From NCBI RefSeq assembly GCF_027214025.1, contig NZ_JAPWHB010000001.1, forward strand, positions 868,001-932,000: DNA of 64,000 nucleotides, written 5' to 3'. This document shows, piece by piece, positions 28,766 through 47,136 of this stretch. The notes beneath the pieces were generated by a model. The model was not told the origin of the DNA. It made no database searches and saw only the letters and a list, made by a program, of their open reading frames with translations. The first letter of the stretch is position 1; each line of letters begins with the position of its first letter. Position numbers and translations under genes: made by a program. This DNA comes from Parahoeflea alexandrii. Its GTDB lineage: Bacteria > Pseudomonadota > Alphaproteobacteria > Rhizobiales > Rhizobiaceae.

Positions 28766-29338
28766 TCACATGCCCTGCGGACCGCGGTTCATGGCGGCGA
28801 TGCCGGTGCGGCAGATCTCGACGAGGCCGAGCGGGCGCATGATCGAGATGAACTGTTCGATCTTGGAGACGCGGCCGGTGATCTCGAAGATGAAATGCTC
28901 GGTGTTGGCGTCGATCACCTGGGCGCGGAAGGCGTCGGCGAGCCGGAGCGCTTCGACCCGGTTGTCGCCGGTGCCCGTCACCTTGACCAGCGCCAGCTCG
29001 CGCTCGAGCGGCTTGTCATGGCCAAGCTCGGCGGAGCGCACGGTCAGGTCCACCACCCGGTGCACCGGCACGATGCGCTCGAGCTGCGACTTGATCTGCT
29101 CGAGCACGTTGGGCCTGGCGGTGGTGACGATGGTGATGCGCGACAGATGCGCCTCGTGCTCGGTTTCCGAGACCGTCAGGCTCTCGATGTTGTAGCCGCG
29201 GCCCGAGAACAGGCCGATGACCCGGGCAAGCACGCCCGGTTCGTTGTCGACCAGTACCGATAGCGTGTGGGTTTCCGGACGGGCGGTTTCGGCGGTCATG
29301 AAGTAGGCCGAACCGGTGGGTTGATGCTGAGCGTTCAT
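28766..29338 (-). CDS. ilvH: Acetolactate synthase small regulatory subunit
   Basis: This 190-residue regulatory subunit has an N-terminal ACT domain (HTLSVLVDNEPGVLARVIGLFSGRGYNIESL, split across residues 23-55) and the standard C-terminal ALS_ss domain. It gives valine feedback control to IlvI. It lies 27 bp downstream of ilvI in the attenuated operon. The first ATG adds about 20 residues before the ACT domain compared with short versions; an internal ATG at residue 14 is an alternative. Confidence 0.96.
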   Translation of the reverse strand: MNAQHQPTGSAYFMTAETARPETHTLSVLVDNEPGVLARVIGLFSGRGYNIESLTVSETEHEAHLSRITIVTTARPNVLEQIKSQLERIVPVHRVVDLTVRSAELGHDKPLERELALVKVTGTGDNRVEALRLADAFRAQVIDANTEHFIFEITGRVSKIEQFISIMRPLGLVEICRTGIAAMNRGPQGM

Positions 29339-29365: not shown

Positions 29366-31141
29366 TCAGACGAGCGCGCGGCCCTTTGCATCGATGGCGT
29401 TGGCGACGGCTTCGTCGGAGGCTTCGTCGGGCAGCAGCATGTCGTTGTGCGCCTTGCCCGAGGGGATCATCGGGAAGCAGTTGGCGAGTGCCGCCACGCG
29501 GCAGTCGAAGATCACCGGCCCCTTGGTGTCGATCATCTTCATGATCGCATCGTCGAGATCGGCGGGCTTGTCGCAGCGGATGCCGGTGGCGCCATAGGCC
29601 TCGGCCAGCTTGACGAAATCGGGCATCGATTCCGTGTAGGAATGCGACAGCCGGTTGCCGTGCAGCAGCTGCTGCCACTGCCGAACCATTCCCATATACT
29701 GGTTGTTCAGGATGAAAATCTTGACCGGCAGCTCATACTGGACCGCACAGGACATTTCCTGGATGCACATCTGGATCGAGGCATCGCCCGCAATGTCGAT
29801 GACAAGGCTGTCGCGGTGCGCGACCTGAACGCCGATTGCCGCGGGGAAGCCGTAGCCCATGGTGCCGAGCCCGCCCGAGGTCATCCAGCGGTTGGGTTCC
29901 TCGAAGCCGTAGAACTGGGCCGCCCACATCTGGTGCTGGCCGACTTCGGTGGTGATGAACGTGTCGCGATCCTTGGTCAGCTCATAGAGCCGCTGGATGG
30001 CGTATTGCGGCATGATCACGTCCGGATTGGACGAATAGGCCAGCGAATTGCGGGTCTTCCAATTGGCAATCCGGGTCCACCAGTCGGCGAGCTGCGATCG
30101 GTCCGTCTTCTTCGAGGCACGCCACAGCCGCACCATGTCCTCGAGCACATGGCCGACATCGCCCAGGATGCCGATATCGGTGCGGACGATCTTGTTGATC
30201 GAGGACGGATCGATGTCGATGTGGATCTTCTTCGAGTTCGGCGAAAACGCATCGAGGCGGCCGGTGATACGGTCGTCGAAGCGGGCGCCGATGCAGACCA
30301 TGACATCGCAATCATGCATCGCCATGTTGGCCTCATAGGTGCCGTGCATGCCGAGCATGCCCATCCAGTTCTTGCCCGAGGCCGGGTAAGCGCCCAGACC
30401 CATCAGGGTCGAAGTGATCGGGAAACCGGTCAATTCGACCAGTTCGCGCAGCAACTGGCTCGCTTCGCGGCCGGAATTGATGACGCCGCCGCCCGAATAG
30501 ATGATCGGACGCTTGGCGGTCGCCATCAGCTCGATGGCCGCGCGGATCTTGTCGAGATCGCCCGAGACCTTGGGCTGGTAGCTCTTCTGCTCGATCACCG
30601 GCGACGGCGGGGTGTAGATGCCGGTGGCGAACTGGACATCCTTGGGGATGTCGACGACGACAGGACCGGGACGGCCGGTGGTGGCGATGCGGAAGGCCTC
30701 ATGGATGATGCGCGAAAGCTGGTTGACGTCCTTGACCAACCAGTTGTGCTTGGTGCAGGGCCGGGTGATGCCGACAGTGTCGCATTCCTGGAAGGCGTCG
30801 GAACCGATCAGCGAGGTCGGAACCTGGCCGCTGAGGCAGACGATGGGGATCGAATCCATCAGCGCGTCCTGGAGTGCCGTGACCACGTTGGTGGCGCCCG
30901 GCCCGGAGGTGACGAGAACGACACCCGGCTTGCCGGTGGAACGGGCATAGCCCTCGGCCATGTGGCCGGCGCCCTGCTCGTGGCGCACCAGAATGTGCTC
31001 AACATCCTCCTGCTGATGCAGTTCGTCATAGATCGGCAGAACCGCTCCGCCGGGATACCCGAAAATATGCTCGACGCCGTTGTCTTTCAGCGCCTGCAGA
31101 ACCATTTCTGCGCCTGTCATTTCCATTTGCTTGCCGGCCAT
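29366..31141 (-). CDS. ilvI: Acetolactate synthase large catalytic subunit
   Basis: This 591-residue ThDP enzyme forms acetolactate from pyruvate, the first common step of valine, leucine and isoleucine synthesis. Visible features are FGYPGGAVLPIYDEL, the catalytic glutamate in VRHEQGAGHMAEGYAR, and the ThDP motif GDASIQMCIQEMSCAVQYELPVKIFILNN (written across about 455-485). The start at 31141 has an AAGGGG site. It is preceded by a leader peptide, competing hairpins and a terminator, so expression should follow the charging of branched-chain tRNAs. Confidence 0.97.
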   Translation of the reverse strand: MAGKQMEMTGAEMVLQALKDNGVEHIFGYPGGAVLPIYDELHQQEDVEHILVRHEQGAGHMAEGYARSTGKPGVVLVTSGPGATNVVTALQDALMDSIPIVCLSGQVPTSLIGSDAFQECDTVGITRPCTKHNWLVKDVNQLSRIIHEAFRIATTGRPGPVVVDIPKDVQFATGIYTPPSPVIEQKSYQPKVSGDLDKIRAAIELMATAKRPIIYSGGGVINSGREASQLLRELVELTGFPITSTLMGLGAYPASGKNWMGMLGMHGTYEANMAMHDCDVMVCIGARFDDRITGRLDAFSPNSKKIHIDIDPSSINKIVRTDIGILGDVGHVLEDMVRLWRASKKTDRSQLADWWTRIANWKTRNSLAYSSNPDVIMPQYAIQRLYELTKDRDTFITTEVGQHQMWAAQFYGFEEPNRWMTSGGLGTMGYGFPAAIGVQVAHRDSLVIDIAGDASIQMCIQEMSCAVQYELPVKIFILNNQYMGMVRQWQQLLHGNRLSHSYTESMPDFVKLAEAYGATGIRCDKPADLDDAIMKMIDTKGPVIFDCRVAALANCFPMIPSGKAHNDMLLPDEASDEAVANAIDAKGRALV

Positions 31142-31171: not shown

Positions 31172-31187
31172 CGGGCTCAATAGCCCG
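31172..31187 (-). other. Short hairpin between attenuator terminator and ilvI
   Basis: CGGGCT and AGCCCG form a 6-bp stem around a 4-base loop, 31 bp before ilvI. It may shield or position the ribosome site in read-through mRNA. Confidence 0.4.
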
Positions 31188-31198
31188 GTTTAAGCCAT

Positions 31199-31222
31199 AA
31201 AAAAAGGCCCCCGGAGGAGCCT
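31199..31222 (-). terminator. ilv attenuator terminator
   Basis: On the minus strand AGGCTCC pairs with GGGGCCT (one G-U) around TCCG, followed directly by seven T. It lies between the leader peptide stop and ilvI, so it ends transcription before the operon unless the upstream fold changes. Confidence 0.88.
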
Positions 31223-31228
31223 GTGTTT

Positions 31229-31277
31229 CGCGCATGGGAGCTTTCGCCGGGTGGCTACGCCACCCTGCCCATGCGCG
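31229..31277 (-). promoter_or_regulatory. ilv leader competing hairpin
   Basis: CGCGCATGGG (transcript side 31277-31268) pairs perfectly with CCCATGCGCG (31238-31229). It encloses an inner GGGTGGC-GTA-GCCACCC stem. It overlaps the end of the leader reading frame, so ribosome position decides whether it forms. Confidence 0.75.
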
Positions 31278-31311
31278 GTCCTACCACGAGAATGTTCGCG
31301 ATCTTGTTCAT
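31255..31311 (-). CDS. ilvL: ilv operon leader peptide (attenuator)
   Basis: This 18-residue frame reads MNKIANILVVGPRMGRVA. Its control codons are Ile, Ile, Leu, Val, Val, with another Val near the end, exactly the amino acids made by the downstream pathway. A GAGG site lies six bases before ATG. The stop is inside the stem-loop region that precedes the terminator, as in E. coli-type attenuators. Ribosome stalling at I-L-V codons when these tRNAs are uncharged would block the first hairpin and favour read-through into ilvI-ilvH. The reading frame, structures and terminator are all seen; the mechanism is inferred. Confidence 0.9.
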   Translation of the reverse strand: MNKIANILVVGPRMGRVA

Positions 31312-31347
31312 GCTTTACCTCGTACCGCCTCGCAAACCCCGCGTCAA

Positions 31348-31376
31348 TTGATAATTTGTCAGAAAACCGGTGCCAA
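31348..31376 (-). promoter_or_regulatory. Probable ilv leader promoter
   Basis: TTGGCA (31371-31376) and TATCAA (31348-31353) are 17 bp apart, placing the transcript start about 30 bp before the leader ATG. An alternative TTGACG at 31342-31347 has a poorer -10. Confidence 0.5.
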
Positions 31377-31437
31377 AACCCTCCGTTCCCGGGAGGCCGC
31401 AACTCCCCATTAACCGGGCGATGCGATAGTGGCGGCA

Positions 31438-33453
31438 ATGAACAGTGAACAGAGCACAGACAACAAAATCACATCACCGGCTTCGGACGAGGAGGACGGG
31501 CGCGCGCGCCGTGGCACCTACCCGGCCGGAAACCGGCTGATGGGCCGTGTGGTTGGCTGCTCCGGCTCCAAGGCGACGGTCAGCGCGATTGCCGGCAAGG
31601 ACGGCAATGGTCTGGCCGAGCTATGGTCGGTGGGACGGCTGATCTCGATCAGCGTCGGCGACAACCGGGTGGTGGCGCTTGTCTGCTCGATGGAGACCGC
31701 AACCACCGCATGGTCTGAATCCGACGAAAACATCATGCACATCGATGTCGAGCTGGTTGGCGAGATCCGTACCGGCGTGAGCGGAAAGCCCGAATTCAGC
31801 GCCGGCATCACCCAGTATCCCTATCTCGGCGCGGTGGCCCACCGCATGCGCTCCTCGGATCTCGCGATCATCTACGACCCGGGCGTCAGCGACACGGCGG
31901 TGATCGGCAAGCTGACCCAGGACACCTCGCTGGGCGCGCTCATTCACATTCCGTCGCTTTTGTCGCGGCACTTCGCCGTTGTCGGCACCACCGGCGTGGG
32001 TAAGACCACGGCGGTGACGCTGCTGCTCAACAAGGCGCTGATCGCCGACCCCTCGCTCAGGGTGCTCATTCTCGATCCGCACAACGAGTTCGCGGCAGCC
32101 TTTCCCAACAAGTCGGTGGTCATCGACACCGATACACTGGACTTGCCGTTCTGGCTGTTCAAGCTCGAGGAATTCACCGAAGTGCTGTTCCGGGGGCGGC
32201 CGGCGATCGCCGAAGAGATCGACGTGCTGCGCGACCTGATCCCGGAAGCCAAGCGGATGTTCAAGGGTACCACCGACACAACGCTGATCCGCCGCGGGCC
32301 GGAAAAATCGTCGCTGACGGCGGATACGCCGGTTCCCTACCGCGTGGCCGACCTGCTGGCATTGATCGACGAGCGCATCGGCAAGCTGGAAGGCCGGGCG
32401 GAAAAGCCGCACCTGCGGTCGCTCAAGGTGAGGATCCAGGCCGCGATCAACGATCCGCGTTATGAATTCATGTTCTCATCGAACACGATCCACGACACCA
32501 TCCTGACCACCATCAGCCACATCTTCCGGATTCCCGGAGAAGGCAAGCCGGTGACCACGTTCCAGCTGGCGGGCATCCCGTCCGAGGTGGTCAACTCCGT
32601 GGCTTCCATCCTGTGCCGCATGGCTTTCGAAATCGCGCTGTGGAGCGCGGGCGGCGTGCGGATTCTGGTGGTCTGCGAGGAAGCTCACCGCTACGTGCCG
32701 GCCGATCCGAAGCTCGGTTTCTTCCCGACGCGCCAGGCGATTTCGCGTATCGCCAAGGAGGGCCGCAAATACGGCGTCAGCCTCGGCGTGATCACCCAGC
32801 GCCCGGGCGAACTCGACCCGACCATCCTGTCGCAGTGCTCGACCGTGTTCGCCATGCGGCTGTCCAACGACCGCGACCAGGACATCATCCGGTCTGCCAT
32901 TCCCGATTCGTCGGCCTCGACAATGAGCTTCCTGTCATCGATCGGCAACGGCGAAGCCATTGCCTTTGGCGAAGCGGTGGCAGTGCCGATGCGCATGGTG
33001 TTCGAACGGGTCTCGGAGGCGGTACTGCCGCGCGCCAATTCGGGTCTGCAGCCGGTTCACCGGGGCGATCCGAACACTGTCGACCTGGGCAAGATCGTCA
33101 TGCGGATGCGCCATATCGATGAAACCGCCAAGACCTTTGCGCCTGCAGCAGAGCCGGCCCGGCCGCAGCCGGGCTCGTTCAGGCCGCAAATGCCATCGAT
33201 CGATCCGACCGAGGAATTCGGCGCCGCAGCGCCAATGCGCCGCGCCACCGATGGCTTTCCCGGTGCAACGACACCGGATCAGGCCTATGCCGGTCATGCC
33301 GCCGACCGGGGCACGGACTACCGTCCGGCCGCTCCGGCAGCACACAGCGCCGACAGGAACCCGGAATACCGTCCGGCTGCACCGCGTCCCGAACTCAATT
33401 CACTCCGTTCCAGCCTGTTGAAAAAGCCGCTCTCCTCACTGCTCAAGGACTGA
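31438..33453 (+). CDS. HerA-like DUF87 ATPase
   Basis: This 671-residue protein has an N-terminal HAS-barrel-like region (about 30-150), then the RecA-like ATPase of the FtsK-HerA superfamily with Walker A VGTTGVGKTTAV near residue 185. Walker B is ILVVCEEAHRYVP near 400, and the arginine-finger region is QRPGELDPTIL. The C-terminal 110 residues are Pro/Ala-rich and contain [DE]YRPAAP twice, so the tail is probably disordered. HerA pumps DNA in hexamers with NurA or with Sir2/defence nucleases. None of these partners is adjacent. It is divergent from the ilv leader. Confidence 0.88.
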   Translation: MNSEQSTDNKITSPASDEEDGRARRGTYPAGNRLMGRVVGCSGSKATVSAIAGKDGNGLAELWSVGRLISISVGDNRVVALVCSMETATTAWSESDENIMHIDVELVGEIRTGVSGKPEFSAGITQYPYLGAVAHRMRSSDLAIIYDPGVSDTAVIGKLTQDTSLGALIHIPSLLSRHFAVVGTTGVGKTTAVTLLLNKALIADPSLRVLILDPHNEFAAAFPNKSVVIDTDTLDLPFWLFKLEEFTEVLFRGRPAIAEEIDVLRDLIPEAKRMFKGTTDTTLIRRGPEKSSLTADTPVPYRVADLLALIDERIGKLEGRAEKPHLRSLKVRIQAAINDPRYEFMFSSNTIHDTILTTISHIFRIPGEGKPVTTFQLAGIPSEVVNSVASILCRMAFEIALWSAGGVRILVVCEEAHRYVPADPKLGFFPTRQAISRIAKEGRKYGVSLGVITQRPGELDPTILSQCSTVFAMRLSNDRDQDIIRSAIPDSSASTMSFLSSIGNGEAIAFGEAVAVPMRMVFERVSEAVLPRANSGLQPVHRGDPNTVDLGKIVMRMRHIDETAKTFAPAAEPARPQPGSFRPQMPSIDPTEEFGAAAPMRRATDGFPGATTPDQAYAGHAADRGTDYRPAAPAAHSADRNPEYRPAAPRPELNSLRSSLLKKPLSSLLKD

Positions 33454-46408: not shown

Positions 46409-46551
46409 GGATATTCCCCTTGAACTGGAAGCCGCCCCTCCCGGAACCGCCTTCCGTTAGCAATTCAACGTCTGCATGTTTGGCGCGGAAGCAGAAGCTG
46501 TCAATAGTCCCTCGCGGTGATTAACCCCTTTTCATCGGGGGATGCGCACCC

Positions 46552-46557
46552 TATATT
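46552..46557 (+). promoter_or_regulatory. Probable -10 box of ssrA
   Basis: TATATT lies just before the inferred 5' end of the acceptor piece of tmRNA. No good -35 was identified. Confidence 0.4.
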
Positions 46558-46559
46558 GG

Positions 46560-46643
46560 GAGTGCTGCGCAAGCAGCTATGACAATAAACGAGCGTTGCA
46601 ATAAACCATTCGGACCCGGGGGCGGTACCCGGCGCCTCCACCA
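46560..46643 (+). ncRNA. ssrA: tmRNA acceptor piece (approximate 5' end)
   Basis: It ends CTCCACCA. The T-arm is CCGGG-GGCGGTA-CCCGG, with a 7-base loop lacking TTCG, a known peculiarity of alphaproteobacterial tmRNA. It becomes the alanine-charged piece after processing. Confidence 0.85.
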
Positions 46644-46687
46644 TGATCCGGCGACATGCCGAAGCGGCCAAGCGGCCGGATGATGAT
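46644..46687 (+). other. Intervening segment removed from pre-tmRNA
   Basis: Forty-four bases lie between CCA and the GGGGGCG 5' end of the coding piece. CGGC/GCCG-type pairing is possible within it. Confidence 0.7.
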
Positions 46688-46771
46688 GGGGGCGAAACAG
46701 GATCGACGAGGGTGTAAAGAGCGACTTTTTGTTCGGCATTGTACCACCGTTATCGGGCTAAACTTGTAGTT

Positions 46772-46810
46772 GCAAACGACAACTATGCGGAAGCTCGTCT
46801 CGCTGCCTAA
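46772..46810 (+). other. ssrA: tmRNA tag reading frame ANDNYAEARLAA
   Basis: GCA resume codon to TAA encodes 12 residues ending RLAA. The LAA end is the ClpX recognition signal; the AANDNY-type start is the SspB-binding part. Confidence 0.95.
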
Positions 46811-47136
46811 TGGCGGTGTGACACTTCAAATCAAGTCCTAGGGGGTCGCACTTCTAGGCGGGGTTCGGAGGTACCTGGCAACAGAAACCTCCATTTTCCC
46901 CGATGCATGGACCGAGCGAAACACCCAATGCGCCCGTCCCGCCAATCGGGACCACCGGCAAGCGGTATGCGCCGTGGCTGGACCGTTCCTGAAAGCAATC
47001 CGGCTTTATCCTGCAACACAGCTTTCAAGCGCATGGGCTTTCCGGTAAGAAAGACAGGTGAATCGGCGTGATCAGACCGCCGTCACGATCAGGAATCGGC
47101 TCTGAGCACCGGGCCCAGACAGGAAAGAACGCGCTG

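Follow-up and report, generated by a model that had tools for sequence, protein, structure and literature searches.

The stretch upstream of ilvI raises the question of how the ilvIH operon is controlled, and by what mechanism, in the window, by which we mean the whole 64,000-nucleotide stretch of DNA that was analysed, from a Hoeflea-like genome (nearest named relative by IlvI: Hoeflea alexandrii, 94%). A sequence-only reading had described a complete branched-chain amino-acid attenuator at this site, consisting of an 18-residue leader before ilvI-ilvH, a large hairpin with an inner 7-bp stem, a GC terminator with seven T, and then ilvI. Each of these parts was found on the minus strand, and the sequence holds the leader ORF with its codon cluster, three conserved helices, the terminator, the gene order and a promoter-like spacing (Table 1). 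The cluster, Ile-Leu-Val-Val in the window, matches the products of the pathway, as had been claimed. Its conservation, a stop codon within a hairpin loop, three covarying helices and the downstream gene uphold the assignment as a branched-chain attenuator before ilvIH; the word 'complete' is the part that did not hold, as folding, covariation and a swap test all failed to reveal a conserved antiterminator. We consider it very likely that the element is a ribosome-mediated transcription attenuator of ilvIH belonging to RF02502, an RNA family conserved in Rhizobiales.

Table 1. Coordinates of the ilvIH leader element and its genes in the window
Feature	Position	Strand	Remarks
-35 element TTGACG, putative	31342..31347	-	position of TTGAC kept in most loci of the window's family
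-10 element TACGAG, putative	31319..31324	-	17 nt after the -35 element
Leader ORF MNKIANILVVGPRMGRVA, 18 codons	31255..31311	-	ATG 31311, TAG 31257-31255
Control codons ATT CTC GTG GTA (Ile7 Leu8 Val9 Val10)	31282..31293	-	
H1 5' arm CGCGCATGGG	31268..31277	-	covariation
H1 3' arm CCCATGCGCG	31229..31238	-	covariation
H2 5' arm GGGTGGC	31259..31265	-	covariation; stop codon begins in the H2 loop
H2 3' arm GCCACCC	31249..31255	-	covariation
Small hairpin GGC-GAAA-GCT	31239..31248	-	in three-way junction, window fold; GGC invariant in 63-row alignment
H3, intrinsic terminator AGGCTCCTCCGGGGGCCT, with seven T	31222-31205; T 31205-31199	-	
Second hairpin CGGGCT-ATTG-AGCCCG	31172..31187	-	6 bp, between U tract and ilvI
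ilvI, acetolactate synthase large subunit	29366..31141	-	NF006581, 1206.5 bits, cut-off 974
ilvH, acetolactate synthase small subunit	28766..29338	-	NF008864, 222.4 bits, cut-off 119

Layout of the element in the window

Read 5' to 3', the putative promoter elements and the leader follow one another as TTGACG, 17 nt, TACGAG, 7 nt and the ATG at 31311. The Val10 codon starts 8 nt ahead of the first H1 pair counted by the model. H1 encloses both H2 and the small hairpin, so that the stems are nested around a three-way junction, and in the window fold a spacer of 6 nt separates H1 from H3. The sequence AAGGGG at 31156-31151 lies ahead of the ilvI ATG at 31141. When both strands of the 64-kb window were scanned for an ORF of 10-35 codons that has four consecutive I/L/V residues and precedes both a hairpin of -10 kcal/mol or below and at least six T, this arrangement was the only one returned, and 50 block-shuffles of both strands yielded no comparable arrangement.

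The sequence of the second hairpin, at 31172-31187, is identical in two of five close relatives (L016 and L084), while two others (L026 and L087) have a different inverted repeat, CCAGCC/GGCTGG, at this site and one (L006) has neither, as judged by eye. The divergent gene at 31429-33453 on the plus strand resembles HerA-type ATPases, at scores below the curated cut-offs of the four families compared. Elsewhere in the window, an alphaproteobacterial tmRNA of the permuted type lies at 46525-46895 on the plus strand.

Distribution and conservation of the RNA family

The element matched the Rfam family RF02502 (Atu_C8) at 31309-31189 with 120.7 bits (E 3.4e-26), above the gathering cut-off of 50 bits. 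The match took in the whole model (positions 1-122 of 122), starting at the G of the leader ATG and running slightly beyond the U tract. RF02502 is listed by Rfam as Gene; sRNA, a Rhizobiales sRNA, and its name Atu_C8 presumably comes from Wilms et al. 2012. The RNA is the same; Rfam labels it an sRNA, whereas we read it as a leader of ilvIH that codes for a peptide and ends at the terminator. This reading would tie an sRNA family of unstated function to ilvIH as a terminated leader across Rhizobiales. Among the matches listed in the open-licence literature, none gave a functional account of Atu_C8 or of the present attenuator, and 'ilv' was absent from the accessible portions of the main text of the rhizobial and agrobacterial papers PMC10117765, PMC10469942, PMC3616915, PMC3738593, PMC4842269 and PMC3927594. 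A weak match to the Rfam family L2-Alphaproteobacteria (16.3 bits, cut-off 37.8) was set aside.

Genomes were sampled from the window's bacterial family, order and class, the samples overlapping in part and each including the window's own genome. RF02502 was matched in 146 of the 151 family genomes (141 over the Rfam cut-off), in 131 of the 249 order genomes (38 over it) and in 6 of the 289 class genomes (2 over it); four of the matching genomes in the class sample lie outside the order, one of them above the cut-off. The five family genomes without a match have sizes of 1.2 to 2.0 Mb, and other genomes of 1.1 to 1.9 Mb do have one.

In all, 203 loci were examined, 63 returned by searches and 140 chosen from the match lists, and ilvI lay downstream of the element in 197 of them. 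Starting from the gene, the element was found upstream of ilvI in 79 of 80 ilvI loci taken from titled records. In the 80th, on a metagenome contig (L272, 1355-1430), the stretch from the H2 5' arm to the end of the terminator is missing, owing to either a deletion or an assembly fault. The six loci without ilvI, namely the weak matches L061, L062 and L063 together with L037, L058 and L065, were left out of the leader-ORF counts and of the ilv folding tests. Four genomes carry two ilvI-like copies, each with an element of its own (L014/L064, L018/L068, L066/L067 and L070/L071).

A leader ORF with an I/L/V run of at least three residues was present in all 197 ilvI-linked loci and one with at least four I/L/V within six residues in 194; both figures lean upward, as leader ORFs were chosen for I/L/V density, and the second leans further because it includes the start residue of 12 GTG/TTG starts. 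The last I/L/V codon lay exactly 8 nt before H1 in 79 of 98 alignment rows; the first codon of the cluster, the length of the leader ORF and the H1-H3 spacer varied among loci. The stop codon fell inside the H2 loop in 71 of the 78 rows with a placeable H2, and H1/H2 ended 4-9 nt ahead of the terminator in 91 of 97 rows. H1/H2 is thereby a hairpin of the 1:2 type overlapping the end of the leader ORF, a mark of ribosome-mediated amino-acid attenuators, and further attenuator marks are present in a leader ORF with codons for the pathway products and an intrinsic terminator before a biosynthetic gene.

Alignment of the leader among relatives, proposed by the sequence-only reading, revealed strong covariation in H1, H2 and the terminator. 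Even in a plain MAFFT alignment of 63 family loci, double changes were seen in 11 of the 21 pairs of these helices. In an alignment of 101 rows fitted to the structure, which includes three weak rows (L061 twice and L062), standard pairs were kept in 98.4% of cells and double changes were seen in 20 of the 21 pairs, with none of 500 shuffles as high on either measure. Dropping L061 and L062 left the 98-row set that was used for mutual information, spacing counts and swap tests. The 12 pairs of highest mutual information all fell within H1, H2 and H3. The swap test compares the pairing of segments within one sequence with that of segments taken from other sequences, its shuffles ignoring ancestry; it gave z values of -20.5 for H1, -19.0 for H2 and -10.2 for H3 (20 shuffles, 98 rows).

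Branched-chain attenuators of ilvIH in alphaproteobacteria were reportedly predicted by Vitreschak et al. in 2004, and are said likewise to consist of a leader before ilvIH, branched-chain codons and a terminator. The reading of the present element as an ilvIH attenuator is well supported and not new in kind: it is by kind an ordinary attenuator, already predicted for the group, though with a gap in the usual mechanism. What it adds to prior knowledge is a leaderless-looking ORF in the window's family and the finding of no conserved antiterminator. The sequence-only reading noted that such attenuation had been predicted for ilv operons of proteobacteria; Table 3 of PMC2573895 lists an ilvIH cis-regulatory element for S. 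meliloti with Vitreschak 2004 as its reference. For Caulobacter, a figure legend in a ribosome-profiling and RNA-seq study (PMC4117421) describes attenuation of ilvIH through an ilv leader CDS; there too a leader CDS and attenuation precede ilvIH, a likeness of description. Such attenuators are among the matters reviewed in PMC6123439.

Start of the leader RNA and search for an antiterminator

In 120 of the 132 loci from the window's family, presumably the Rhizobiaceae, TTGAC stands at -39 to -34 from the leader start, and the same loci hold 23 other occurrences of TTGAC in the 111 positions further upstream. Of the remaining 65 loci, 64 from the order and one from the class, 13 have the motif at this distance. 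A Shine-Dalgarno-like motif was seen in 13 of the 132 window-family loci versus 38 of the 65 others. At offsets 23 and 24 from TTGAC, T occurs in 110 of 136 and A in 97 of 136 loci. The window has GAGG at -10 from the leader start; 10 of the 203 loci, the window among them, combine TTGAC at -39 to -34 with a Shine-Dalgarno-like motif. A strict consensus promoter scan of the window returned no match and did not call the -10 element TACGAG. Counted from a -10 element 17 nt downstream of the -35, +1 would fall on the leader ATG or no more than about 2 nt away from it, and by this spacing the leader ORF in the window's family looks leaderless. With a start at the ATG, the terminated RNA would be about 113 nt long; a short RNA had been foreseen by the sequence-only reading, at about 140 nt instead.

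A parallel is found in S. meliloti, where the trpL RNA (rnTrpL) begins with ATG, as stated in PMC7298713. There the RNA starts at the ATG, whereas here a start at or beside the ATG is suggested by spacing. Both would have the leader ORF at the 5' end of the RNA, and rnTrpL is an attenuator-derived sRNA from a related bacterium; it differs in its Trp codons and in that trp leaders of the family are strongly sequestered in the folding test described below.

In up to 197 loci, neither folding nor covariation nor the swap test showed a conserved antiterminator whose formation would exclude the terminator. In equilibrium folding, the terminator probability was near 1 at each ribosome position tried (median of 197 loci). 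It dropped below 0.5 at some ribosome position in eight loci, of which L038, L043, L044 and L178 lose the terminator only around edges 42-48, and a few individual ilv members may switch or otherwise differ. Equilibrium terminator probability proved unable to separate attenuators from plain terminators, since it stayed at 0.77 or more in each of the six E. coli leaders whichever edge was tried; because the measure fails on E. coli, sequestration of the terminator 5' arm was used instead. For this test the leader is folded with its ribosome-covered part single-stranded, at a stage when the terminator 5' arm has emerged and the 3' arm has not, and the upstream pairing of the 5' arm is recorded. 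The test considers secondary structure only and assumes a leading edge of the ribosome 12 nt past the first A-site base.

The E. coli thr, trp, leu, ilv, ivb and his leaders all had sequestration of about 0.65-1.0 at their control codons (6/6). Past the stop, five of the six fell to about 0.15 or less and his did so only later, falling at edge 54, rising back to 0.8 and finally falling at edge 96, well past the stop. The trp leader of the window's own genome gave 0.79-0.85 at edges 30-36, 0.13-0.52 near the stop and 0 from edge 69. This leader (L290, contig C41) belongs to a trp attenuator whose terminator 5' arm is strongly sequestered at the Trp codons; it lies upstream of trpE and reads MHVAQNNWWWVRF, or has two more codons in front. 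Sixty-one family genomes were sampled for their best TrpE matches, and the thirty trp leaders obtained from these had a mean value of 0.68 at the Trp codons and still one of 0.40 beyond the stop, with at least 0.6 at the Trp codons in 25 and a drop of 0.3 in 13. Given this and the late fall of his, the controls of the test are imperfect. The ilv elements ran in the reverse of the direction expected of an attenuator, the mean over 196 loci being 0.19 with the ribosome at the control codons and rising to 0.44 once it was beyond the stop; three loci reached at least 0.6 at the control codons. The E. coli ilvL, ivbL, leuL and trpL leaders resemble the ilvIH element in their control codons, in hairpins close to where the leader ORF ends and in a terminator with a U tract; they differ from it in the strong upstream pairing of the terminator 5' arm when the ribosome is at the control codons.

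Applied to upstream segments with either terminator arm, the swap test gave pooled z values between -1.9 and +1.9 (20 shuffles, 98 rows). Repeated with 100 shuffles within two separate groups (32 and 66 rows) for 9 of the 14 pairings of an upstream segment with a terminator arm, it gave z values between -2.3 and +2.7. Two pooled signals, between the H1 3' arm and the stretch after the U tract (z -4.4; -1.0 and -2.9 within groups) and between the leader and the H1 3' arm (z -4.2; -1.3 and -2.0 within groups), were read as shared ancestry because their z values fell within groups. Pairings noticed by eye, AAAGCUCCC with GGGGG and AGCC with GGCU, had no co-evolution support.

In the window fold, H1, H2 and H3 all form with a ribosome at Ile7 or Leu8, just as they do without a ribosome. 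A ribosome at Val9 shortens H1, one at Val10 abolishes it, and with the stop codon in the A site both H1 and H2 are lost; H3 forms in all of these cases. Since the downstream RNA is identical with and without a ribosome stalled at Ile7 or Leu8, the RNA alone cannot tell such stalling from release, and only the presence of the ribosome could carry the signal.

Readings of the leader and transporter-linked copies

From these features we infer the following start site, translation, termination and response to starvation of the ilvIH leader. RNA polymerase probably starts at the leader ATG or right beside it, which would make the leader ORF leaderless. With ample charged Ile-, Leu- and Val-tRNA, the ribosome would reach the stop in the H2 loop and leave, and transcription would end at H3, giving the RNA of about 113 nt. 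With charged tRNA in short supply, the ribosome would wait at Ile7-Leu8-Val9-Val10 beside the base of H1, and the polymerase would pass H3 into ilvIH. Read-through would then depend either on a hidden antiterminator or on the ribosome itself disturbing the terminator.

It is possible, though we lean against it, that the element is a classical attenuator whose antiterminator was missed by the tests, be it a pseudoknot, a short helix, an invariant sequence or a helix aided by polymerase pausing. Computed duplexes supply two candidates in the window. In the first, the terminator loop and 3' side would pair with the stretch around GCCACCCGG (31255-31247), at -15.5 to -16.9 kcal/mol; in the second, the terminator 5' side would pair with leader nt 22-36, at -15.5 kcal/mol. 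Neither the first of these, taken with the terminator 3' side, nor the second had co-evolution support, and the swap test detected no co-evolution with either terminator arm, against the strongly negative z values of H1, H2 and H3. Moreover, the GCCACCCGG pairing appears in the window only with a ribosome over the H2 5' arm, and the terminator probability then comes down just to 0.85 (edge 54). Strong sequestration, too, was found in all six E. coli leaders and 25 of the 30 trp leaders but in 3 of the 196 ilv loci. In favour of a switch are the 8 of 197 loci that lose the terminator at some ribosome position in the equilibrium fold, and the fact that GGC 64-66, AGG 90-92 and GCC 104-106 are invariant or nearly so in the 63 loci, so that an exchange among them would be invisible to covariation. 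A conserved antiterminator in the ilv family is thus judged unlikely by tests that a pseudoknot or an exchange among the invariant GGC/GCC segments would escape. The alternative, that a docked ribosome prevents termination itself, without an antiterminator helix, throughout the order-wide family, is speculation, and we hold it to be doubtful. It draws on two distances: the 8-nt spacing would keep a waiting ribosome close up to the base of H1, and, with the spacer between H1 and H3 being short, folding of H1/H2 would carry that ribosome to the side of RNA polymerase while the terminator is being made. A ribosome stalled at Val10 melts H1, and this sits uneasily with docking. The element raises the question of whether every attenuator needs the textbook antiterminator, and if its absence held true in experiments, the leader would be a compact natural system for the direct action of a stalled ribosome on termination.

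Readings that dispense with attenuation as the main function fare worse still. That the terminated RNA is mainly a trans-acting sRNA would agree with the Rfam label of RF02502 and with rnTrpL, which derives from the S. meliloti trp attenuator, starts at the ATG and acts in trans besides attenuation (PMC7298713), but a trans function requires neither the downstream ilvI nor the codon cluster, which are conserved together, and we judge it quite improbable. A constitutive terminator beside a chance small ORF, with no regulation, is scarcely credible: the terminator is indeed predicted to form whatever the ribosome does, but the I/L/V cluster and its 8-nt spacing to H1 are conserved, and a comparable arrangement is absent both elsewhere in the window and in the shuffles.

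The element also occurs before a gene for a Bcr/CflA-family MFS transporter, in place of ilvI, in three loci from genomes of different families (L037 1501-1621, L058 1501-1620 and L065 901-1020). The L037 and L058 transporters score over the TIGR00710 cut-off; that of L065, truncated by the locus end, does not. With the L037 transporter as query, 53 of the 249 order genomes were matched, and 30 transporter loci were fetched. The RNA model found the element (E up to 1) in seven of these, the L037 and L065 copies again among them, with 0.007 and 0.04 as the weakest E values. All seven fall within the 12 transporter loci of at least 48% identity, and the other 18 loci are without the element. The homologue in the window's own genome (L304, 42%) has no five-U run within 330 nt upstream, and the sole ORF candidate there is a 39-codon TTG ORF with Leu-Leu-Leu. 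Among 23 transporter loci inspected for leaders, one with at least three I/L/V in a row, mostly valine, before a U run was clearest in L293, L298, L300, L301, L303 and L305, and less convincing candidates were seen in L294, L295 and L310. These observations suggest that a branched-chain, perhaps valine, attenuator may act on a transporter of the Bcr/CflA family.
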